Shown here piece after piece: positions 1,563 through 21,854 of a stretch of DNA of 64,000 bases (position 1 is the stretch's first letter; each line of letters starts with the position of its first letter). The notes under the pieces were generated by a model, which was not told where the DNA came from, did no database searches, and worked only from the letters and a program-made list of their open reading frames with translations. Source of the DNA: Thioalkalivibrio sp. ALE14. Its GTDB lineage: Bacteria > Pseudomonadota > Gammaproteobacteria > Ectothiorhodospirales > Ectothiorhodospiraceae. The translations under genes were made by a program, and so were the position numbers. The stretch is from positions 124,001-188,000 of the forward strand of contig NZ_AQXY01000029.1 in NCBI RefSeq assembly GCF_000376845.1, given 5' to 3'.

Positions 1563-2623
1563 TGCGCTTTCGCACCGAATCCTCCCCGCACATGATCCCG
1601 GCTCACTCCGTGGGCGGGGTGATGCAGCAGGTCCAGATGGCGCTGGTCCCGGGGACCCTGGCGATGGCCTGGTTCTTCGGCTGGGGCGTACTGGTCAATG
1701 TGGTCCTGGCCGTGCTGTTCGCCGTGGCCTTCGAGGCCGCGATCGTGGCCGCCCGCAAGCGCCCGGTCATGACCACCCTCGGCGACAACTCGGCCATCGT
1801 GACCGGCTGGCTGTTTGCCCTGGCCGTACCGCCACTGACCCCCATATGGGTGACCCTGATCGGCATCGCCTTTGCCATCATCGTGGCCAAGCACCTCTAT
1901 GGCGGGCTGGGCTACAACCCGTTCAATCCGGCCATGGTCGGCTACGTGGTCGTGCTGGTCTCCTTCCCGCGGGAGATGGCCCTGTGGCCCGCACCGGACA
2001 CCCTCTCCGACATGTCGCTGGGCCTTGGCCAGACATTGCAGACCGTCCTCACCGGCAGCCTGCCGGCCGCCATGGACTGGGACGCGATCACCCGCGCGAC
2101 GCCCCTGGACGCCATGCGCGAGGGCCTGGGCACCGGCCGCACGGTCAGCGAGATCACGGCAAGCCCGATGTTCGGCAGCTTCAGCGAGAGCAGCTGGGAG
2201 TGGATCGGCAACTTCTTCCTGCTCGGCGGGCTGTACCTGCTGTTCCGGCGCATTATCCACTGGCATATCCCGGTCGCCGTCATCCTGGGCGTGGCGATCC
2301 CGGCCGGCTTCTTCTGGATCCTGGACCCGGATTCCTTCGCCTCCCCCGCATTCCACGTCTTCAGCGGGGCGGTGATCATCGGCGCTTTCTTCATCGCCAC
2401 CGACCCGGTCTCCGCCTCTACCACCCCCCTGGGGCGCATCCTCTACGGGGCCGGCATCGGCTTGTTGATCTTCGTGATCCGCACCTGGGGCGGCTATCCC
2501 GACGCGGTCGCCTTCGCCGTGCTGCTGATGAACATGGTCGCCCCGACCCTGGACCACCTGACGCGCCCGCGCATCTTCGGCCGCTCGCGCCGCGGCCCGC
2601 CGCCGGGGGACGGGCATGCTTGA
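1562..2623 (+). CDS. rnfD: RnfD (RsxD), membrane subunit D of the Rnf complex
   Basis: Integral membrane subunit carrying covalently bound FMN in the Rnf complex (family knowledge). The 353-residue protein is made of about ten hydrophobic segments and has the expected family length. The conserved FFIATDPVSASTT stretch (about residues 276-288) lies in the region associated with flavinylation. The first residues (MRFRTESSPHMIP) resemble the short cytoplasmic N-terminus of RnfD. It is translationally coupled on both sides: a one-base overlap with rnfC and an 8-base overlap with rnfG. Confidence 0.95.
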   Translation: MRFRTESSPHMIPAHSVGGVMQQVQMALVPGTLAMAWFFGWGVLVNVVLAVLFAVAFEAAIVAARKRPVMTTLGDNSAIVTGWLFALAVPPLTPIWVTLIGIAFAIIVAKHLYGGLGYNPFNPAMVGYVVVLVSFPREMALWPAPDTLSDMSLGLGQTLQTVLTGSLPAAMDWDAITRATPLDAMREGLGTGRTVSEITASPMFGSFSESSWEWIGNFFLLGGLYLLFRRIIHWHIPVAVILGVAIPAGFFWILDPDSFASPAFHVFSGAVIIGAFFIATDPVSASTTPLGRILYGAGIGLLIFVIRTWGGYPDAVAFAVLLMNMVAPTLDHLTRPRIFGRSRRGPPPGDGHA

Positions 2624-3311
2624 CCTGAAGCCCCGCGACATCCTGCTGGCCACCGCCCTGCTCGCCGGCTTTGCCGCCGCCGGGGCAGGGATCGTCGCCC
2701 TGGTCCAGAACGCCACCGAGGCGCGTATCGAGGACAACCGCATGGCGGTCAACCGCAACCGCATTGCGGAGCTGACCGGGGAACTCGACTACCGCAACGA
2801 TCCCGTCCACGACACCGCCAACCTGAGCCATGAACTGCTGGGCGGCGACCACCTGCCCGCCTGGTTCGCCCGCGATGCGGACGGCGATGTGGTCGGCATC
2901 GTCTTCTCGGCGGTTGCCCCGGACGGCTACAGTGGCGACATTCACCTGCTGATCGGCTTGGACCGGAACGGCGAACTCCAGGGCGTGCGCGTCTCCGCGC
3001 ATCGCGAGACGCCCGGGCTGGGGGATGCCATCGAGGCCGAGCGCTCCGACTGGATCCACGGCTTCGACGGCCGCTCGCTGGGCAACCCGCCGGCCGAGGA
3101 CTGGCGGGTGCGCAAGGACGGCGGCGTCTTCGACCAGTTCACCGGGGCCACCATCACCCCGCGTGCGGTGGTTCGCGCCGTCTACCGCACCCTGAAATAC
3201 TTCGACCAACACCGCGACGAACTGCTGGCCACCCGGCCCGACGCCAGCGGCTCCGTAGTGGAACCGCTCCCGCAGGCCGAAGCCAGCGGGGATGACGAGG
3301 CAAGCCGATGA
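2616..3311 (+). CDS. rnfG: RnfG (RsxG), FMN-binding periplasmic subunit G
   Basis: Membrane-anchored subunit whose periplasmic FMN-binding domain carries covalently attached FMN (family knowledge). One N-terminal membrane helix (about residues 9-28) is followed by a soluble domain. The flavinylation motif reads F-T-G-A-T at residues 175-179, making Thr179 the expected FMN attachment residue. At 231 residues it is slightly longer than the E. coli protein because of an acidic C-terminal tail. The start overlaps rnfD by 8 bases and the stop overlaps the rnfE start (ATGA), so translation is coupled. Confidence 0.95.
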
Positions 3312-4009
3312 ACCCGACCCTGACCGACATCATTCGCGACGGCCTGTGGCACAACAACCCCGGGCTGGTGCAGCTGCTGGGCCTGTGCCCGCTGCTGGCC
3401 ATCTCCGGCACCATGGTCAACGCGATCGGCCTCGGCATTGCGACCACCCTGACCCTGCTGCTGTCCAACGTGCTGGTCTCGCTGATCCGCAACCACGCGC
3501 GTCCGGAGATCCGCATCCCGGTGTACGTGCTGATTATCGCGTCCATCGTCACCGCGATCGAGCTGGCCATGAACGCCTGGTTCCACGGGCTGTACCTGAT
3601 CCTCGGGATCTTCATCCCGCTGATCGTGACCAACTGCGCCATTATTGGCCGCGCCGAGGCCTTTGCCTCGCGCAATTCGGTCCCGCGCGCGGCGCTCGAC
3701 GGGCTGATGATGGGGCTGGGCTTCACCGGCGTTCTGATCGCCCTGGGCGCCCTTCGCGAGGTCCTCGGCCAGGGCACCCTGATGGCCAATGCGCACCTGC
3801 TGTTCGGCGAGTGGGGGCACGGGATGACCCTGCAGCTCTACCCGTCCGAGCACGGCTTCCTGCTGGCCCTGCTGCCACCGGGCGCCTTCATGGCCATGGG
3901 CCTGCTGATCGCCGCCAAGAACTGGATCGACAGCCAGTTCGAAGCCGAACCCGCGCCCAGTGCCGACGAGAGCGCCACCGAATCCGAAACCGCCCCGGAC
4001 AACGCCTGA
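3308..4009 (+). CDS. rnfE: RnfE (RsxE), membrane subunit E of the Rnf complex
   Basis: Integral membrane subunit paired with RnfA in the ion-translocating core (family knowledge). The 233-residue protein has six hydrophobic helices and the conserved opening with [20 protein letters not shown]. The stretch with [17 protein letters not shown] (about residues 107-123) is the usual cysteine-containing signature shared by RnfA/RnfE. An acidic tail of about 25 residues follows the last helix. The ATG overlaps the rnfG stop. In E. coli rnfE is followed directly by nth; here another gene is inserted first. Confidence 0.95.
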
Positions 4010-13011: not shown

Positions 13012-14328
13012 TCAGTCGTCCGGGTTCAACCGCGGGTGGGTCTCCTCGCCCCACCACCAGACCAGGGCCCCGGAGAGAAACATCGCGACCACCACAAACC
13101 AGAAGCCCCACACGACCGAGCCGCCCAGGTGGGCCACGATGCCCAGCCCGAGCGCACCCACGCCGTAGCCGAGATCACGCCAGAAGCGGTAGGTCCCGAT
13201 CGCCGATCCTCGCCAGTTGGGGTGCGCGATATCCGCCACTGCGGCACTCAGGTTCGGGTACAGCAGCGCCATACCGAACCCGGTCACGGCCGCCGCGAAC
13301 GACCACCACAGCACGCCGTCGCCCAGCAGCGTCAGGGCCACCCCGCCACCACAGATCCACATCCCCCAGATGATCGGCTGGCGGCGCCCGATGTGGTCCG
13401 ACAGGCGCCCAGTCATGAACTGCGAGCCACCCCAGACGAAGCCGTAGATTCCGACCACCCAGCCGATCGCCGCCAGGCTGAGCCCCTGCTGGTACAGGAA
13501 CACCGGATAGAACACCCAGACCAGGGCATCCACGAACTTCTCGACCAGCCCGGCCTGGCTGAATGCGGCCATACGCCGGTCGCGCCAGGACATCAGGGTA
13601 AACACCTCCCAGGTGGTGGGCGTGTCGGCGATGTTCTTCGGATAACGCGGAACCGGACCGGTGGACTGACCGGCCGCATGCCGCGCACCCTCTGCCTTGG
13701 CCCACTCCAGCGTCTCGCGCACGAACACCGCGGTCATCACGATCGCCAGCGCAATCACCACCAGGCCGAAGATCAGCAGGCCCATGCGCGGGCCGAACGC
13801 GGCCGCCATGTAGCCGGTCACGATCCCCGCGACAGCGACCCCGACATACCCGGAGAACTCGTTCATCCCCATGGTGAAGCCGCGCTCGTCGGCACGGGTG
13901 ATGTCCATCTTCGCAGTCTGGGTCATCGACCACGCGAGCCCCTGGTTCACGCCCAGCAGCACGGTCGCCGCCACGATCCAGCTCCAGGACGGGGCGTAGA
14001 GGATCATGAACGGGATCGGAATCGCCGCAATCCAGCCCAGCATGAGGACCGTCTTGCGCCCCAGCCGCTCGGACAGGCGCCCGGCGACGAAATTGAGCGC
14101 GCCTTTCACCACCCCGAAGGCGACCACAAACGCGGTCAGCAGCATGAACGAGCCCTCGGCCACGCCGAACTCGCTCTCCGCCAGCGCCGGCACGACCGTG
14201 CGCATCATGCCGATCGTCAAGCCGACGAAGAAGACCTGGATCAACTGCTGCCCGAACTGTCCGAGATTCTCGCGGATGCCGTGCGTCAGGTGGGCATAGG
14301 CCTCCGCGGCCTTGTGATGGTCTGTCAC
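13012..14328 (-). CDS. MFS transporter in the ArsR-rhodanese operon
   Basis: A 438-residue major facilitator superfamily permease with about twelve hydrophobic helices and the loop 2-3 signature GRLSERLGRKTVLM, echoed in the second half by GRLSDHIGRRQPII. GTG 14328 is chosen because it overlaps the stop of the upstream ArsR-rhodanese gene (GTGA). The substrate is unknown. Co-expression with a rhodanese-fused regulator suggests a sulfur or metalloid compound, which is inference only. Confidence 0.88.
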   Translation of the reverse strand: MTDHHKAAEAYAHLTHGIRENLGQFGQQLIQVFFVGLTIGMMRTVVPALAESEFGVAEGSFMLLTAFVVAFGVVKGALNFVAGRLSERLGRKTVLMLGWIAAIPIPFMILYAPSWSWIVAATVLLGVNQGLAWSMTQTAKMDITRADERGFTMGMNEFSGYVGVAVAGIVTGYMAAAFGPRMGLLIFGLVVIALAIVMTAVFVRETLEWAKAEGARHAAGQSTGPVPRYPKNIADTPTTWEVFTLMSWRDRRMAAFSQAGLVEKFVDALVWVFYPVFLYQQGLSLAAIGWVVGIYGFVWGGSQFMTGRLSDHIGRRQPIIWGMWICGGGVALTLLGDGVLWWSFAAAVTGFGMALLYPNLSAAVADIAHPNWRGSAIGTYRFWRDLGYGVGALGLGIVAHLGGSVVWGFWFVVVAMFLSGALVWWWGEETHPRLNPDD

Positions 14329-15014
14329 GTCGTGCGCTCCGTGTCGTTGTGATCCACCGTTTCCAGGGGCAGCCCCTGGTAGCGCCACTCGGCAACGCCG
14401 TCCTCGAGCCGGGTCGCGTGAAAGCCGTACTGGCCCAGGACCTCCACGGCCTCGCTCGCCATCAGGCAGTACGGGCCTCGGCAGTACGCCACCACCGGCC
14501 GATCCGCCGGCAACTCGCCCAGCCGGTCGCGCAGTTCATGGACCGGGATGGAGCGGGCATAGGGAAGATGGGCATTCGCGTATTCCATACCCGGCCGCAC
14601 ATCCAGCACGATGACCTCGCCACGGCGGGCCTGTTCCAGCAGCTCGGGCCCGGCCATCGGGGCCAGCTCGCCCGGGCCTTCGGCGAGCTCGCGGGTAGCG
14701 GCCTGTAGCTCCAGCAGACGCTCCTCCGCCAGACCGCGCAGCATCACCCAGAAATCGGCAACATGCCGGTCCACCAGGCGATAGAACATGCGCCGACCCT
14801 CACGCCGGGCCTCCACCAGCCGCGCCTGGCGCAGTTCCTTCAGGTGGGCGCTGGTCAGCTTCACGCTGATCTCCGCATCGGCTGCCAGTTGCTCGACGCT
14901 CTTTTCCCCCTGCACCAGGACTTCGATCAACTCCAGCCGCTTCGGACTGGCCGCAGCCCGGGCAATGCGGGCCACCTGCTCGTACAGCAAATTCTTGAGG
15001 TCTCTACCCGACAT
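14325..15014 (-). CDS. ArsR-family regulator fused to a rhodanese domain
   Basis: A 229-residue two-domain regulator. Residues ~1-100 form an ArsR winged helix (RIARAAASPKRLELIEVL, then the recognition region DAEISVKLTSAHLKEL and wing EARREGRRMFYRL). Residues ~125-220 form a rhodanese domain with VIVLDVRPGMEYANAHLPYA and an active-site loop YCRGPYC, so two cysteines flank the loop. The ArsR domain has no cysteine, so any sulfur or metalloid sensing must use the rhodanese. ATG 15014 has GGAA eight bases upstream. Start and ribosome-binding site both lie inside a perfect palindrome (15013-15050). It is translationally coupled to the MFS gene. Confidence 0.88.
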   Translation of the reverse strand: MSGRDLKNLLYEQVARIARAAASPKRLELIEVLVQGEKSVEQLAADAEISVKLTSAHLKELRQARLVEARREGRRMFYRLVDRHVADFWVMLRGLAEERLLELQAATRELAEGPGELAPMAGPELLEQARRGEVIVLDVRPGMEYANAHLPYARSIPVHELRDRLGELPADRPVVAYCRGPYCLMASEAVEVLGQYGFHATRLEDGVAEWRYQGLPLETVDHNDTERTT

Positions 15015-15050
15015 AGCGTTCATTCCAATATTCGTTGGAATGAACGCTAT
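15013..15050. promoter_or_regulatory. perfect 16-bp inverted repeat, probable operator over the arsR-rhodanese start
   Basis: Arms 15013-15028 and 15035-15050 are exact reverse complements with a 6-base spacer. The site covers the start codon and ribosome-binding site of the ArsR-rhodanese gene and faces the divergent SOR-like gene. Its inner ATTC...GAAT arrangement is typical of ArsR-family operators. Autorepression is inferred. Confidence 0.7.
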
Positions 15051-15190
15051 AGGATCCGGCGACCTCACGCAATCCCCTGGTCAGGCTGCCCTTCCCCTCT
15101 GCGGCGCGCGCATTCCGGCGCACCCATTCCGACAGGGCACCCACGATCGGGCCCTCCGGTTTTTGGGTGATTTTGGGAGGAAGATTAATT

Positions 15191-15226
15191 CCTGAGTAAT
15201 CTACTCGGGAACTTCGATTAGAAGTT
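15191..15226. promoter_or_regulatory. two adjacent inverted repeats upstream of the SOR-like gene
   Basis: CCTGAGTA/TACTCGGG (15191-15198 and 15202-15209, one mismatch) is followed directly by AACTTC/GAAGTT (15210-15215 and 15221-15226, perfect). They lie in an unusually AT-rich stretch (about 15160-15250), probably the promoter region of the gene at 15290. No confident -35/-10 pair was found. Confidence 0.45.
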
Positions 15227-15289
15227 GCTTACTAACTGAATGACTATCCCGTGCCCACGGGCACCCTTCCCCTGCAAAAGGAGGACGTC

Positions 15290-15739
15290 ATGAGCCAGCT
15301 GATCAACAACTTCCCGGCCGACGGCGTGGTCACCATCAATCGCGTGATCCTAAAGCCGGAATACACCATCGACGACCTGCAGGAGCGTGTCGCGGTCCTC
15401 TGCGAGAACGTGAAGACCTATCACTCGGATACCGGGTTCGTGGGCGGCTTTGTGGCCCTGAACTCCGGCGCGGTCTCCAACGAGGGCTCGACGATCGGCC
15501 AGGCGGTCGAGAGCCCGATGAAGGACAAGGAAGCGCTGATCATTACCTTCTGGAACAGCTTCGAGGAACACGAGGCGTCGCATCAGAGCGAGACCTTCCA
15601 GCCCCTGTTCCAGCAGGTCCTGGAACTGTGCGAGAACGGGAACGAGGAGATCGCCTACGAGATGCTCTGGTCCGGCGCGGCCTACGACCCGGAACAGGCC
15701 AAGGCCGCCCGCGAGGCCAAGGAAACCCACGCGGCCTGA
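15290..15739 (+). CDS. small SOR-like / ABM-fold protein
   Basis: A 149-residue protein with a strong ribosome-binding site (AAAAGGAGG, 15277-15285) before ATG 15290. It has the strand-helix layout of dimeric alpha+beta barrel (ABM-like) proteins and resembles the N-terminal half of sulfur oxygenase reductase (SOR). Cys38 precedes a GFVG motif (50-52), as active-site Cys31 does in Acidianus SOR. TFWNSFEEHEASH (86-98) gives His94-x3-His98, like iron ligands His86 and His90, and Glu119/120/124 lies near the position of Glu114. SOR is about 310 residues, so this is half-length. A generic ABM monooxygenase is the alternative. It is divergent from the ArsR-rhodanese gene and ends at a strong terminator. 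Confidence 0.8.
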   Translation: MSQLINNFPADGVVTINRVILKPEYTIDDLQERVAVLCENVKTYHSDTGFVGGFVALNSGAVSNEGSTIGQAVESPMKDKEALIITFWNSFEEHEASHQSETFQPLFQQVLELCENGNEEIAYEMLWSGAAYDPEQAKAAREAKETHAA

Positions 15740-15803: not shown

Positions 15804-15830
15804 GCCGGGGCCTAACGCCCCGGCTTTTTT
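15804..15830 (+). terminator. Rho-independent terminator of the SOR-like gene
   Basis: A perfect 8-bp GC stem (15804-15811 with 15817-15824) with a CTAAC loop, followed by six T residues, lies 64 bases after the stop. The SOR-like gene is therefore probably monocistronic. Confidence 0.92.
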
Positions 15831-16154: not shown

Positions 16155-16550
16155 TCAGCGCGATGCGTCGTCCTGATCCTCGGGCTCGTGCATCTCCGGC
16201 GGCGAAGACAGGGTGTGAGTCTTCTCGTCGTAGCGTCCCTTCAGCTCGTCGGTCTTGCTGTGTTCCCACAGCGGCACACCGACGAAATAGCCGGCGCGTC
16301 CGATCGCGTGCGCGGCCACCGGAGCAGTCAACAACAGGAAACCGATCACCGCCACGGCCCGGGTCGTCACGCCACCGTCGCCGAAGTACACCGCTACCCC
16401 GACCATCATCAGGCCAGCGCCCAGCACCCCCGCCTTGGTCGTGGCATGCAAGCGCATCGGGAGGTCCGGCATGCGTACCAGGCCCAGCGCCGCCACCACC
16501 ATGAACGCGGCACCCACCACCAGAAACAGCCCCGTGAAGAACTCAGTCAT
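16155..16550 (-). CDS. mnhG: MrpG/MnhG, Na+/H+ antiporter subunit G
   Basis: Small membrane subunit of the multisubunit Mrp Na+/H+ antiporter, needed for assembly of the hetero-oligomeric complex. The 131-residue protein has three hydrophobic helices and the family motif MRLHATTKAGVLGAGLMM. The start MTEFFTGLFL (16550) overlaps the mrpF end by 8 bases. The hydrophilic acidic C-terminal tail (about 35 residues) is longer than in short MnhG proteins. Last gene of the operon. Confidence 0.93.
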   Translation of the reverse strand: MTEFFTGLFLVVGAAFMVVAALGLVRMPDLPMRLHATTKAGVLGAGLMMVGVAVYFGDGGVTTRAVAVIGFLLLTAPVAAHAIGRAGYFVGVPLWEHSKTDELKGRYDEKTHTLSSPPEMHEPEDQDDASR

Positions 16551-16818
16551 CGTCCCGGTGCCCCCCTTTCTCCAGATAGCGGGCAAACCCGACCGCCGCG
16601 AGGAACGCGGTCAGCGCCAGCACCATGGCCACATCAATGAACGGGGTGCGCCCGCTGGAGATCACGTACACCGCGATGAAGCCGATCGTCAGCGATGCGA
16701 TCAGTTCCAGCGCGACCACGCGATCGGGCAGCGTCGGCCCCAGGTACAGCCGCCAGAACCCCAGCAGTAGCGCGATGCTCAGCAGGACGTTGGCAGCGAT
16801 GATGGCGATATCGAACAT
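16543..16818 (-). CDS. mnhF: MrpF/MnhF, Na+/H+ antiporter subunit F
   Basis: A 91-residue subunit with three hydrophobic helices and the conserved LGPTLPDRVVALELIA loop, matching family length. The start codon directly abuts the mrpE stop and the end overlaps mrpG. It works only as part of the Mrp complex, which exchanges cytoplasmic Na+ for H+ and helps keep cytoplasmic pH neutral under alkaline conditions. Confidence 0.93.
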   Translation of the reverse strand: MFDIAIIAANVLLSIALLLGFWRLYLGPTLPDRVVALELIASLTIGFIAVYVISSGRTPFIDVAMVLALTAFLAAVGFARYLEKGGHRDDD

Positions 16819-17292
16819 CTAGCGCAGGACCTCCAGGGCCCGATGTTCCAGGTACTTGATCGAGCGGATCACCTCTTCCCGATCCTCGATATACATCACG
16901 TGGATATAGAGCACCTTCTTGTCGGTGGACACGTCGAGGCTCAGCGTCCCCGGGGTCAGCGAGATCAGGTTGGCGACAATGGTGATCTCGCCATCGGTCT
17001 CGGCATCCAGCGGGAATGCGATCACGCCCGGCACCATGTGGTGGGTCGGCGTCATCACGTCGTAGGCCACCTTCAGGTTGGACAGGAACAGCTCCCACAG
17101 GAAGTAGCCAATAAAGGCGATGAACTTCGGCACCCGCCGCGCGTAACTCGAAAACCCGGGCTTGTCGCGCAGCGCAAACGCCAGCAGCACGTAGCCGAGG
17201 AAGAAGCCTACCAGCAGGTTCCCGGTCGTAAACGTCCCGGTCAAAAAGACCCAGATCAGGGCCAGCGCGATATTCCAGGTCAGCGCGATCAT
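16819..17292 (-). CDS. mnhE: MrpE/MnhE, Na+/H+ antiporter subunit E
   Basis: A 157-residue membrane subunit with N-terminal hydrophobic helices and the cytoplasmic domain characteristic of MnhE: VPGVIAFPLDAETDGEITI, then LTPGTLSLDVSTDKKVLYIH. The start overlaps the mrpD stop (ATGA). Required for assembly and activity of the Mrp complex. Confidence 0.93.
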   Translation of the reverse strand: MIALTWNIALALIWVFLTGTFTTGNLLVGFFLGYVLLAFALRDKPGFSSYARRVPKFIAFIGYFLWELFLSNLKVAYDVMTPTHHMVPGVIAFPLDAETDGEITIVANLISLTPGTLSLDVSTDKKVLYIHVMYIEDREEVIRSIKYLEHRALEVLR

Positions 17293-18788
17293 GGGCGACT
17301 CTCCCCGAGGACCGCTTCAATATACTGCGACGGATCCAGCAGTTGTTCGGCCGACATCAAAGCCATCTGGTAGATCGGCTCGCCGTACAGGCCGATGGCC
17401 ACGGTCATCAGTGCCAGCATGATCACCGGGATCCACATCCAGATCATCGGACCGGAGGTCACGTCATCGGTCTCCACGCCCTCCGGCTGCGCCTTCCAGA
17501 ACACCTCGGCCCAGATCTTGATCATCGAGTACAGGGTCAGCAGCCCCACCACCAGCGCGACCGCCACCACCCAGTACGCCTCGGCCTCGATGCCGGCGCG
17601 GATGATGATGAACTTGGCGAAAAAGCCGGACAGCGGCGGCAGCCCCGCCAGCGACAGCGCCGGAATCAGGAACAGGACGCCCAGCATCGGGTTCGTGCGG
17701 TAGATCCCGCCCATCTGCTTCAGCTCGTGGGTCCCCTTCATCACGAAGGTGATCCCGCTGATCAGGAACAGATTCGCCTTCACGATGATGTGGTGCATGA
17801 TGTAGAACACCCCGCCGACCAGCGCCAGCGGCGTGAACAGCGCCAGCCCCATAATCATGTAGCCGATCTGGCTGATGATGTGGAACGACAGGATGCGCCG
17901 GAATTCGTAGTGCGCCGCCGCCCCGAGCACGCCGGTCAGCATGGTGGCGGCCGCCACCCACAGCAGGATCTCGTGGGTATAGTCCACGTCCTGATTGAAG
18001 ATCAGCGTGAACACGCGATACAGCGCGTACACCCCGACCTTGGTCAGCAGGCCCGCGAACAGCGCGGAGACCGCGACCTTGGGCGTGTGATAGGAGGCCG
18101 GCAGCCAGAAGAAGAACGGGAACGCCGCCGCCTTCACCCCGAACGCGACCAGGTACAGCATCGCGATCACGGTGATCAGACCGGTGTCCTCCACCGTGGC
18201 CAGCTTGTCCGCGATGTCCGCCATGTTCAGCGTACCGGTCAGCCCGTAGGTCAGGCCGATCGCGGTCAGGAAGATCATCGACGACAGCAGGTTCAGGGTG
18301 ACGTACTTGATCGCCCCCTCCATCTGCGCGCGCTCCCCGCCCAGGATCAGCAGCGCGAAGGAGGCGACCAGCATCACCTCGAACCACACGTAGAGGTTGA
18401 AGATGTCGCCGGTCAGGAAGGCGCCGTTCACCCCCGCCAGCAGCAGATGGAGCAGCGGGTAGTAGCCGAACTTCTCCGACATCTTGCCGATGCCGGAGAG
18501 CGAATAGAGCGCGGTGGCAAAGCCGATGATCCCGGTCAGCACCACCATGATCGCGGCCAGCATGTCGGAGACCAGCACGATCCCGAACGGAGCGGGCCAG
18601 GAGCCCATCTCCATCACCACATGGCCGTGCTCCCAGGTATCCGCCAGCAGCCAGACGGAGACCGCCAGCATTGCGCCGGTGCCCAGCACACCAAGCGAGC
18701 GCTGTGCGAAGTGCGAGCGCCAGAACATCACCGACAGCGCGCCGAACAGCAGCGGCAGCACGACCGGAAGGGCCACCGACATCATCAT
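17289..18788 (-). CDS. mnhD: MrpD/MnhD, antiporter subunit homologous to NuoM/N
   Basis: A 499-residue proton-conducting membrane subunit related to the NuoL/M/N antiporter-like subunits of complex I. About fourteen hydrophobic helices are visible, with the conserved [15 protein letters not shown] region holding the key glutamate. [20 protein letters not shown] carries the lysine/proline-broken helix, and the [10 protein letters not shown] segment the conserved histidines and lysine. Coupled by ATGA overlaps to mrpC and mrpE. Confidence 0.95.
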
Positions 18789-19132
18789 CGATCAGTGTCC
18801 TTCATCTGGTCCATGTCATCGGCCTGAACCACCTCGTAGGCGCGGTGAATCAGCACCACGGCAAACGCCAGCACCCCGAAGCCAATGACGATCGCGGTCA
18901 GCACCACGGCCTGGGCCAGCGGATCGGCGGATATCCCCTCGGGCACAGTGTCGCCCGGCGCGATCAGCGGCGGCGCACCGGAGGTCATGCCCGCTACGGT
19001 AAAGATCAGCAGATTGGCCGCATTCGACAGCAGCACCAGCCCGATTACCAGCTTCACGATCGAGCGGCGCAGCATCATGTAGATGGCCGCGGCATACAGG
19101 CCGCCCACCACAAAGGCCATGACGACTTCCAT
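18785..19132 (-). CDS. mnhC: MrpC/MnhC, Na+/H+ antiporter subunit C
   Basis: A 115-residue homologue of NuoK with three hydrophobic helices; [16 protein letters not shown] and [16 protein letters not shown] are the diagnostic motifs. ATG 19132 overlaps the mrpB stop as TGATG, which fixes the start, although the frame is open further upstream inside mrpB. An extended acidic C-terminus ([11 protein letters not shown]) follows the last helix. Confidence 0.93.
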
Positions 19133-19557
19133 CAGTCTTCCGCCTCCGCGAGGTTCAGCATGATGGTCAGCACGGACCCGATTACCACCAGGTACACCCC
19201 GATATCGAAGATCAGCACAGTGGAGAGCTTCATCTCGCCGAACAGCGGCGCGGTGAACTCCCACCACTGGGCGGTGAAGAAGGCCTCCCCGCGGAACACC
19301 CCGGGGATCGCGCTGATCACGGCCAGCACCATGCCAACGCCCAGCACGTCGCGCGGGTCCACGCGCAGCACCTTGCGCGCCGACTGGATATCCATCGAGA
19401 ACAGGTACAGCACGATCGCCGCGGCCGCGACCAGACCGCCGATGAAGCCGCCGCCCGGTTCGTCATGACCGCGCAGCAGCAGGAACACGGAGAACAGCAG
19501 CAGCAGCGGCAGCAGGAAATGCCCCGCGGTGCGCAGGATCAGGGAATGCATGTTCAT
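19132..19557 (-). CDS. mnhB: MrpB/MnhB, Na+/H+ antiporter subunit B
   Basis: A 141-residue subunit with four hydrophobic helices and the MnhB signature [17 protein letters not shown] 19557 overlaps the mrpA stop (ATGA). The frame continues open far upstream through mrpA, but only this part is the gene. Ends in a short acidic tail. Confidence 0.93.
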
Positions 19558-21854
19558 CGGCGGTCCTCCGCGCGGAAACGCAGCATCGCGTACACCCCGA
19601 TCGCCGCCAGCGCCAGCACGAAGATCTCGCCCAGCGTGTCCAGCGCACGGAAGTCCACCAGGACCACGTTGACGATATTGCGGCCGTAACCGGAGGGCAC
19701 CGACTCGTCGATGAAGTACTGCGAGATCGACGGGAACAGGCGCGCATCCAGGGTGCTCAGGATCAGCAGCGTGATCATGCCACCCATCACCAGCGCGATA
19801 CCGGCATCGCGTACGCGCAGCGCCGTGGACGACAGGTTCAGGAAGCCCGGCAGGCGGAACAGTACCAGCACCAGCAGGATCACGGTCAGGGTCTCGACCA
19901 GCACCTGGGTGATGCCGACATCCGCCGCGCTGTAGAGCACGTAGACCAGGGCCACGGTAAAGCCCAGCGAGCCCAGCGCCGCCACCGCGCCCAGTCGCGA
20001 GCGGGTCAGCACCGCGAACAGCATGGACGCCACCAGGATCGCCAGGATCGCGACCTCGTGGATCTGCAGCGCGGCCCAGTCGAGGCCGCCCACACCGACG
20101 CCGAACAGCTGCGCCGTCACCCCGACCAGACCCGCGGTCATCGCGACGATCACAATCACGTAATAGCGCAGGTAGCCGTTCTGCAGCACGCGGGTCTGCC
20201 ATTCGGACAGCGCCACCAGGCCGTCCATCATCTTGAAGTAGCCCTTCTCCGGGCCGTATTCGGCGGCACGGTCCACCCACGCCAGCGCGCGGCGCGCCTG
20301 CTCCCAGCGCCAGTACAGCACGCCACCGGCGACCAGGCTGAACGCGGAGATCGCCAGTGGCCAGTTGACCCCGTGCCACAGCGCCAGGTAGCCGTCCACC
20401 GGCGCGCCCTGCACGCTGGCCGCCGCGGCGTTGATCAGGCCTTCGTCCGCCAGCCCCGGGCCGAGACCGAAGATCAGGCCCAGGCTCGCGAGCACCGCCG
20501 GGCCGGCGAGCATGGCCACCGGGGCGTCATGGTGCGGCGTCTTCGGCGTCTCCACCTTGGGTCCGAACCAGGGGCGGATACCCACGATCGCGGCCACCGC
20601 GACCCCGAGGATCGCGGTCAGCACCGCCAGCAGGGCGAGGATGCCGCCCAGGCTCGGCGCATCGAGCACCGCCTCCAGCATCAGTTCCTTGGCGACGAAG
20701 CCGAACAGCGGGATCACGCCCCCCAGCGACAGTGCCGCGAGGATCGCGAACGCCGCCGTCACCGGCAGCGCGCTGCGCAGCCCCCCGGTCTGCAGGAAGT
20801 CCTTCGCCCCGGCCTCGTGGTCGAGAATGCCGGCGACCATAAACAGCGCGCCCTTGTACAGCGAATGCGCCAGCAGGAAGGCCATCGCCGCCATCAGCGC
20901 GGTCTCGGTACCAATGCCGATCAGCATGGTCAGCGTGCCCAGTGCCATCACGGTGGAGTACGCCAGCACCTTCTTCACGCCGGTCGAGCGGAACGCCAGG
21001 AAGACCCCGGTGAACATGGTCACCGCGCCGAACAGCGCCAGCGTGGTGAACCAGATGTCGGTGCCGCCCAGCGACGGATTCAGGCGCGCCAGCAGGTACA
21101 CGCCGGCCTTCACCATGGTGGCGGAGTGCAAGTAGGCGGAAACCGGCGTCGGCGCCGCCATCGCGCGCGGCAGCCAGAAGTGGAACGGGACCTGCGCCGA
21201 CTTGGTGAATGCCCCGAGCAGGATCAGCATCAGCAATGGCAGGTAGAGCGCATGCTCGCGCACCACGTCGCCATTGTTGAGGATCTCGGACAGCTCCCAG
21301 GAACCACCGGCCATCGCCAGCATGATGATCCCGGCCAGCAGCGCCAGGCCGCCGCCCACGGTGACGAACAGGCCCTGCAGGGCGTATTTCCGGGCGTCCG
21401 CGTTCTCGTGGTTGTAACCGATCAGCAGGTAGGACGTGATGCTGGTCAGTTCCCAGAACACGAACATCGCGACCAGGTTGTCCGCCAGCACCAGCCCCAG
21501 CATGGAGCCCATGAAGGCGAGGATGATCACGTAGAAACGCCCGAGGTCGCGATCCCCCTCGAGGTAGCGCCCGGCATAGGTGACGATGAAGAAGCCGATG
21601 CCCGAGATCAGCAGCGCAAACAGCAGCGACAGACCATCCACCAGGAACGAGAGCTGGATATCCAGCCCCGGCAGCCACGGCCAGGCGAGCACGATGGACT
21701 CGCCGCTGGAGACCGCCGGCAGGAAACTGAGGAAATAGACGAACAGCGCGGCCGGCAACAGGCCCAGCACCCAGCCGCTGGCACGGCCGGTCAGGCGGTG
21801 GACCGCGGGGGCGATCGCCGCGACCAAGAACGTTGACAGAATCGCGTAGAGCAT
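19554..21854 (-). CDS. mnhA: MrpA/MnhA, large antiporter subunit homologous to NuoL
   Basis: A 766-residue first gene of the mrp operon. Residues ~1-500 are NuoL-like, with [19 protein letters not shown] containing the conserved Glu, [17 protein letters not shown] with the key Lys and broken helix, and [18 protein letters not shown] with the conserved His/Lys. Residues ~600-766 form the MrpA-specific C-terminal domain related to the MrpB N-terminus ([20 protein letters not shown]). Mrp complexes confer Na+ resistance and alkaliphily. The 205-base upstream gap should hold the promoter, but no clear consensus is visible. Confidence 0.95.

Follow-up and report, generated by a model that had tools for sequence, protein, structure and literature searches.

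The question raised by this locus is whether a protein of half the length of sulfur oxygenase reductase (SOR) can be a relative of that enzyme, and what such a protein would do in a sulfur-oxidizing bacterium. In the window, by which we mean the whole stretch of 64,000 nucleotides from Thioalkalivibrio sp. ALE14 that was analyzed, the gene in question encodes 149 residues. We use the name half-SOR for this protein (P0001) and its relatives. The features of the locus discussed below are:

13012..14388, minus strand: MFS transporter gene, on the same strand as the ArsR-rhodanese gene and overlapping its end
14325..15068, minus strand: ArsR-rhodanese fusion gene, divergent from half-SOR, likely true start near 15014
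15013..15050, no strand assigned: perfect palindrome, arms of 16 bp, located where the ArsR-rhodanese gene starts
15188..15212, no strand assigned: predicted IscR type-1 operator ATTCCTGAGTAATCTACTCGGGAAC, matching 19/25 consensus positions, 78-102 bp 5′ of the ATG
15278..15284, plus strand: ribosome-binding site AAGGAGG, preceding the ATG at 15290
15290..15739, plus strand: half-SOR gene, 149 aa, with the SOR-like residues Cys38, His94, His98 and Glu120
15804..15830 (15804-15824 plus T6), plus strand: intrinsic terminator with an 8-bp GC stem and a 5-nt loop

The half-SOR gene and its relation to SOR

The half-SOR gene is real. Translation of 15290-15739 agrees with the ORF described in an earlier note on this DNA, and the residues named there are confirmed: Cys38, GFVG at 49-52, TFWNSFEEHEASH at 86-98, His94, His98, Cys114 and Glu119/Glu120. 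The view that it is not a fragment also holds, with a start, a stop, AAGGAGG and an intrinsic terminator of its own. A degenerate SOR fragment was ruled out, since 126 of the 128 homologues read from loci are 120-165 aa long. The genome of this strain also has no PF07682 match and half-SOR coexists with full SOR elsewhere, both of which argue against such a fragment.

The earlier note had placed the protein with the N-terminal half of SOR, and profile searches support this part of the claim, though P0001 as a single sequence falls below the curated cut-offs of both PF07682 (15.1 bits, cut-off 25; E 0.01) and NF047630 (17.4 bits, cut-off 400; E 0.0017). When 28 family members were searched, the Pfam SOR model was matched by 21 (best E 2.8e-4) and the NCBIfam SOR model by 17 (best E 6.8e-5); some ABM signal is present too, with Pfam ABM touched by 11 (best E 0.0058) and the related-looking Monooxy_af470-like model by four (best E 9.8e-4). 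SOR 6m35 ranked first with two profiles searched against PDB sequences (E 7.8e-5 and 4.2e-4), and the alignment at E 7.8e-5 puts His94/His98/Glu120 on SOR H86/H90/E114. Matches to triosephosphate isomerase (TIM) in the PDB sequence searches, once second after SOR at E 0.004, came from one short stretch and were taken as chance.

Direct comparison by hhalign, in which each E-value refers to one comparison, gave a probability of 58% for half-SOR against the SORs of seven relatives (E 9.6e-5; 97 columns, stopping before Glu120) vs. 5% against ABM (E 0.008), while the C-terminal half of SOR reached 44% against ABM (E 2.4e-4). Against those same seven SORs the half-SOR profile is weak by database standards, with a best E of about 0.1. 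When SORs were cut in two, the profile matched N-terminal halves or whole chains with weak scores, and no C-terminal half was listed. In a small test, 3/8 ABM proteins scored like the weaker SORs with the half-SOR profile.

Half-SOR shares with SOR (PF07682, NF047630; PDB 2CB2, 6M35) the order and nearly the same spacing of an Asn, the essential Cys, Gly-Phe, Thr-x-Trp, His-Glu-x2-His and a Glu. Full SOR is an enzyme of oxygen-dependent sulfur disproportionation that assembles as a hollow sphere of 24 subunits. Unlike SOR, which has about 310 aa in two halves, half-SOR has 149 aa and lacks the C-terminal half, and the pocket Cys101 and Cys104 of SOR are answered by the single, non-invariant Cys114. 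Judged by length, by the missing second pocket Cys and by scores below the curated cut-offs, half-SOR is not itself a SOR.

In the alignments, from which two short fragments (L127, L128) were left out, Cys38, His94, His98 and Glu120 are identical in all 139 distinct sequences and correspond to SOR Cys31, His86, His90 and Glu114. Invariant positions in this set include Asn17, Cys38, Lys42, Trp88, His94, Glu95, His98 and Glu120; Cys38 is the only invariant Cys, and His94 and His98 are the only invariant His residues. The Asn and Trp corresponding to Asn17 and Trp88 are found in SOR too. The earlier note put a Cys and several Glu at about the positions of Cys101/104 and Glu114. Of the Glu residues, Glu120 is invariant and falls on Glu114; only one Cys is present, Cys114, in 136 of 140 alignment rows. 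According to PMC7398979, StSOR activity was not detected in C31A, H86A, H90A and E114A and was about tenfold weaker in C101A and C104A.

The AF2 model built with 52 sequences, from the window and from related loci (pLDDT 90.5, pTM 0.80; an earlier model with 39 close sequences reached pLDDT 77.5) has both His residues in helix 91-98 and Glu120 in strand 119-124. ABM/DABB-type folds, IsdG/IsdI included, were among the 50 Foldseek matches listed, with a TM-score over target of up to 0.88, and no SOR was among these 50. BFVD yielded one structure at E<=0.001, and this is an ABM protein from a Hyperionvirus. The model thus predicts an ABM/DABB fold of the ferredoxin-like dimeric barrel type, shared with the ABM/DABB superfamily (PF03992; SnoaB, IsdG, YE0340). 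Half-SOR differs from that superfamily in that P0001 has no match to Pfam ABM at E<=10 and in its Cys/His/His/Glu set, which is specific to the half-SOR family. Taken together, alignments and model point to a strongly conserved single-domain family of ABM/DABB fold, related to the catalytic N-terminal half of SOR and likely to have a SOR-like active site.

Carriers, neighboring genes and promoters

Half-SOR was detected in 57 of the 144 relative genomes searched, including 25 of 30 in the same genus, where the five genomes lacking it are 58%–80% complete. A genome_contigs search returned 404 stretches encoding relatives; the best 80 of these 404 are 79-99% identical and include Thioalkalivibrio, Thiobacillus, Sedimenticola, Thiohalophilus, Halochromatium and others, with Thioalkalivibrio supplying the nearest named relatives. 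A second, distant bacterial branch is 32-42% identical. In a phylum-wide set, 9 of 398 genomes carry half-SOR, five of the 9 outside the class. The P0001 query gave no match in plasmid records.

Carriage is linked to genes of sulfur oxidation. Using soxB and dsrA sets compiled by hand, which include long fragments below the cut-off, soxB and/or dsrA were found in 57/57 carriers (one of them, G113, known from a contig-edge fragment) vs. 28/87 non-carriers (Fisher p 4e-19). With one genome per family (97 genomes), the counts are 24/24 carriers vs. 17/73 others (p 4e-12). Since dsrA was found in 35 of the 57 carriers and the genome of this strain has none over the cut-off, half-SOR goes with sulfur oxidation in a broad sense. 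A tie to reverse dsr was rejected, as 22/57 carriers, this strain among them, have no dsrA. The occurrence of soxB/dsrA in 28 of the 87 genomes without half-SOR also means that sulfur oxidation in itself does not require half-SOR.

The neighbors of half-SOR vary from lineage to lineage. The divergent gene in the window does encode an ArsR domain (E 1.6e-10) and a rhodanese domain (E 1.3e-10), and the earlier note proposed that this regulator controls half-SOR. This gene is a neighbor in only 13/97 loci, the palindrome at 15013-15050 sits at the ArsR gene's own start and was not seen in three aligned Thioalkalivibrio promoters (L037-L039), and the half-SOR promoter has an IscR-type site of its own. 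Control by the ArsR-rhodanese protein was therefore rejected as a general explanation. The palindrome is probably the operator of the ArsR-rhodanese gene itself. That gene is a lineage-specific neighbor, and the link to a rhodanese regulator is only a local one.

No IscU or IscA was found in the bacterial half-SOR flanks, which were examined out to about 6 kb. Several other neighbors were recorded, mostly by eye. In two loci (L042, L044) half-SOR is followed on its own strand by a sat gene for ATP sulfurylase; a SoeA-like molybdoenzyme is encoded beyond it. Hsp20-, DnaJ/CbpA- and/or DegP-type protease-like genes lie upstream in several lineages (L091, L118, L119, L120). In the window, 16155-21854 on the minus strand, downstream of half-SOR, resembles an Mrp/Mnh gene cluster for a multisubunit Na+/H+ antiporter, as expected in a haloalkaliphile. 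Thiobacillus-type loci have a gene for a small S24-peptidase-domain protein upstream on the same strand (L103:5487-5849 and similar; 26 loci in all), and several of these S24-like genes carry a separate IscR-like site, about 38 bp 5′ of the start.

Promoters of Thioalkalivibrio half-SOR genes contain a conserved palindromic block, about 80-106 bp 5′ of the ATG, that resembles an IscR type-1 box. The type-1 consensus ATASYYGACTRWWWYAGTCRRSTAT stands verbatim in PMC6599224, in which two P. aeruginosa sites, A and B, are at 68% and 76% of consensus. The window site has six mismatches (19/25, 76%) and is the only one with <=6 in the 64 kb; a site this good arose in 3 out of 2000 mononucleotide-shuffled versions of the 250-bp half-SOR promoter. 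At <=3 mismatches the strict consensus finds no site in the window. Among 96 bacterial half-SOR promoters, in which one locus is counted twice (L053/L126) and seven distant-branch loci are included, 41 have <=4 mismatches of 25, 65 have <=6 and 31 have >=7, vs. an average of about 9 in mononucleotide shuffles; many of the 96 come from close relatives and so are not independent. A count with other start points placed the site in 37/96 half-SOR promoters vs. 10/802 other ORFs, and by position six of these ten reflect the same site viewed from the divergent gene and four the linked S24-like gene. For comparison, promoters of iscR-family genes in relatives show <=4 mismatches in 4/30 and <=6 in 22/30.

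Genome-wide scans gave few sites. In T. denitrificans RG, a Thiobacillus-adapted pattern, itself derived from Thiobacillus half-SOR promoters, finds four sites at <=2 mismatches, of which the half-SOR site is best with no mismatch; the other three belong to an iscR gene, a cysE-like gene before that iscR, and a TrpD-like/Rieske pair. With the unaltered consensus at <=3 mismatches there are eight sites in T. denitrificans, among which the half-SOR site, with two mismatches, shares the top rank. A pattern drawn from the iscR and half-SOR sites of the window's own genome (3.02 Mb) finds these two and no others; recovery of both is by construction, and the informative part is solely the lack of any further site in the 3.02 Mb. 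In ten chosen genomes the unaltered consensus gives 45 sites in about 28 Mb, with one for a backwards control; these genomes were picked for a good half-SOR site, and 10/10 there is thus not a frequency.

Fourteen non-half-SOR sites were examined by eye. Behind three of them lie genes resembling iscR, a monothiol glutaredoxin and SodB; another three have a TrpD-like gene, four have either a thioredoxin-like/ankyrin pair or an ankyrin gene, and the remaining four have other genes. To the eye, 11 of the 14 thus stand before genes without an evident function in Fe-S metabolism, and some of the loci end at a contig edge. No recognized sox or dsr gene lies behind any of the 14. As separate observations, a gene of the TrpD-like glycosyltransferase family follows an IscR type-1-like site in several genomes (L236:1558-2981, L244, L252, L255), with a Rieske ferredoxin gene after it in L236, and in several Thiobacillus-type genomes (L242, L245, L256) such a palindrome is common to a divergent pair of thioredoxin-like (DUF255/YyaL-like by eye) and ankyrin-repeat genes.

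The operator is well supported as a sequence, and we infer that IscR binds it in the hosts. Many half-SOR promoters have a type-1 operator, as do iscR, cysE, glutaredoxin and SodB-like genes. Unlike described members of the IscR regulon, half-SOR was not found as one in the literature searched. IscR control of half-SOR in beta- and gammaproteobacterial sulfur oxidizers is strongly predicted. A good IscR site is absent from 6/7 distant-branch loci and most viral loci, and the five other-class loci (L198-L202) have 8-10 mismatches to the type-1 consensus.

Viral half-SOR

A divergent form of half-SOR occurs on 29 IMG/VR contigs, encoding 24 distinct proteins with starts assigned by script. In the tree, the window's branch stands apart from the viral and distant bacterial branch (100/100). 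BLAST with marker proteins linked 16 of the 29 viral loci to phage proteins of a named type (ssDNA-binding protein, DNA end protector, tail tube, baseplate hub, tail protein, endolysin or tape measure); six of the others have only an exonuclease-like or ribonucleotide reductase protein and seven have none. The marker set is that of T4-like phages. One viral half-SOR query gave no match in 50,697 phage records.

Close to half-SOR, six of the 29 viral loci encode IscU and/or an A-type carrier (L166, L167, L169, L190, L192, L193), L169 and L190 encoding an identical half-SOR protein. The IscU neighbors match NifU_N at E 3e-53 and 2e-51. The phage character of these contigs varies. L192 has baseplate hub and tape-measure matches, and the L169 contig, which has iscU and was examined over 10 kb on both sides, gave matches to virion-structural, tail-fiber, helicase and reductase proteins. 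Among the proteins tested, L166, L167 and L193 show no virion protein; L166 and L167 do have phage-type kinase, ATPase and nucleotide genes. By eye, half-SOR in L193 (3488-5698) lies between two A-type-carrier-like ORFs, directly after a gene like that of a Rieske-type oxygenase subunit, and L166, a putative viral contig with half-SOR, iscU and an A-type carrier, also encodes a caspase-like protein at 2432-3466.

The part of PMC5332604 available describes marine phages that carry iscU and A-type carriers; the six viral loci with iscU or an A-type carrier resemble that case, but half-SOR is not mentioned in that part. Likewise, the excerpt of PMC8190135 names dsrA, dsrC/tusE, soxC, soxD and soxYZ as sulfur AMGs. 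Half-SOR is a candidate phage sulfur/iron auxiliary gene, one that would go unnoticed in searches based on dsr, sox or full-length SOR.

Possible function in Fe-S homeostasis

Predicted IscR control leads to a role of half-SOR in Fe-S homeostasis, which we consider fairly probable. It was the IscR-type operators, together with a viral form that in some cases lies near iscU or an A-type carrier, that shifted the functional reading in this direction. The more specific proposal is that half-SOR has a SOR-like mononuclear iron, handles persulfide and in this way contributes to Fe-S homeostasis in sulfur oxidizers; we consider it about as likely as not. Half-SOR would be a single-domain, probably dimeric DABB-fold protein with the pocket of the catalytic SOR N-terminal half, in which His94, His98 and Glu120 would hold a mononuclear iron and Cys38 would bear a persulfide. 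As a member of the IscR regulon in beta- and gammaproteobacterial sulfur oxidizers, it would be repressed by [2Fe-2S]-IscR, and its expression would rise upon Fe-S shortage. It may then act at the iron on sulfane sulfur or a persulfide, either supplying usable sulfide/persulfide to the ISC machinery or clearing excess damaging persulfide. Uncultured phages carry the divergent form, sometimes beside iscU or an A-type carrier.

The same residues and distribution could instead belong to a mini sulfur oxygenase or persulfide dioxygenase analogue in sulfur oxidation or detoxification, with IscR control following iron need or oxidative stress. The SOR-like residues, the strict co-occurrence with sox/dsr, and the sat and SoeA-like genes (named by eye) that follow half-SOR in L042/L044 fit such an enzyme. 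It is unlikely, however, given that neighbors vary by lineage, that carriers occur with or without dsrA (35/57 with), that the operator type is common to iscR, cysE, glutaredoxin and SodB-like genes with 0/14 other sites before a recognized sox or dsr gene, and that iscU adjoins some viral copies. If IscR-type operators and the viral iscU neighbors are given most weight, half-SOR might be an iron donor, iron sensor or ISC scaffold partner without redox catalysis, its His/Glu site holding Fe(II) and Cys38 taking a persulfide from IscS; the 79-99% identity in the best 80 of 404 relatives would also suggest a binding surface. The invariant core of Asn17, Lys42, Trp88 and Glu95 looks like an enzyme pocket, however, and ISC is general whereas all carriers have sulfur-oxidation genes, so that we regard a purely non-catalytic partner as quite improbable.

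The fold itself invites two further explanations. Invariant Asn17, Trp88 and His98 fall at the positions of the Asn-Trp-His triad of IsdG, and an IsdG-like heme-degrading monooxygenase that frees iron under iron shortage would agree with the Foldseek matches to IsdG/IsdI, with 3/28 members touching the NCBIfam heme oxygenase model (best E 0.0051) and with an operator of the iron type. Yet the PDB-sequence profile searches had SOR first and no IsdG entry at E<=10, the Asn and Trp are present in SOR as well, and Cys38, His94, Glu120 and the restriction to genomes with sulfur-oxidation genes are left unexplained, which makes this reading very unlikely. Finally, half-SOR could be a generic ABM-fold protein of unrelated function with a convergent SOR-like pattern, as the ABM/DABB-type folds among the Foldseek matches listed, the members touching Pfam ABM (11/28, best 0.0058) and the Monooxy_af470-like model (four, best 9.8e-4), and the 3/8 ABM proteins that score like weaker SORs might suggest. 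Against this, P0001 has no ABM match at E<=10, SOR is ahead in the PDB profile searches, the member searches (Pfam, NCBIfam) and hhalign, and all four catalytic positions are invariant; we therefore give convergence hardly any credence.

For the favored Fe-S homeostasis reading, it is important that cells full of sulfane sulfur must still control sulfur for Fe-S clusters. Half-SOR is a concrete, testable candidate for this task, based on the SOR-like active site, the IscR-type operator and the restriction to genomes with sulfur-oxidation genes, and it points to an unrecognized part of iron and sulfur handling in sulfur-oxidizing bacteria. No description of the half-SOR family was found in the literature searched on SOR, IscR in sulfur oxidizers, AMGs, ABM and gene duplication, judged by titles and the opening lines of abstracts; in the part of PMC7692377 available, SOR appears only in the reference list. 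A bolder version, which we offer tentatively and with considerable doubt, would make half-SOR an extra component of Fe-S biogenesis in sulfur-oxidizing Proteobacteria: a homodimer using mononuclear iron and a Cys persulfide to convert sulfane sulfur to sulfide/persulfide independently of cysteine desulfurase, induced through IscR, captured by phages (some with iscU), and perhaps similar to the precursor that gave rise to SOR by fusion with an ABM-like half.

Half-SOR also offers a single-domain relative for considering the origin of the two-half SOR, whose N-terminal half resembles half-SOR and whose C-terminal half resembles ABM in the hhalign comparisons, at modest scores. Half-SOR and full SOR occur together in 13 of the 15 SOR-bearing relatives, the other two genomes being 77%–79% complete. 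The part of PMC6382920 available, a survey of Thioalkalivibrio sulfur genes, gives SOR in three strains only. Among our 144 genomes, drafts included, PF07682 matches were seen in 15, 12 of these in the same genus as grouped here, and the SORs of the relatives (L129-L150) form two subfamilies that are about 32% identical.
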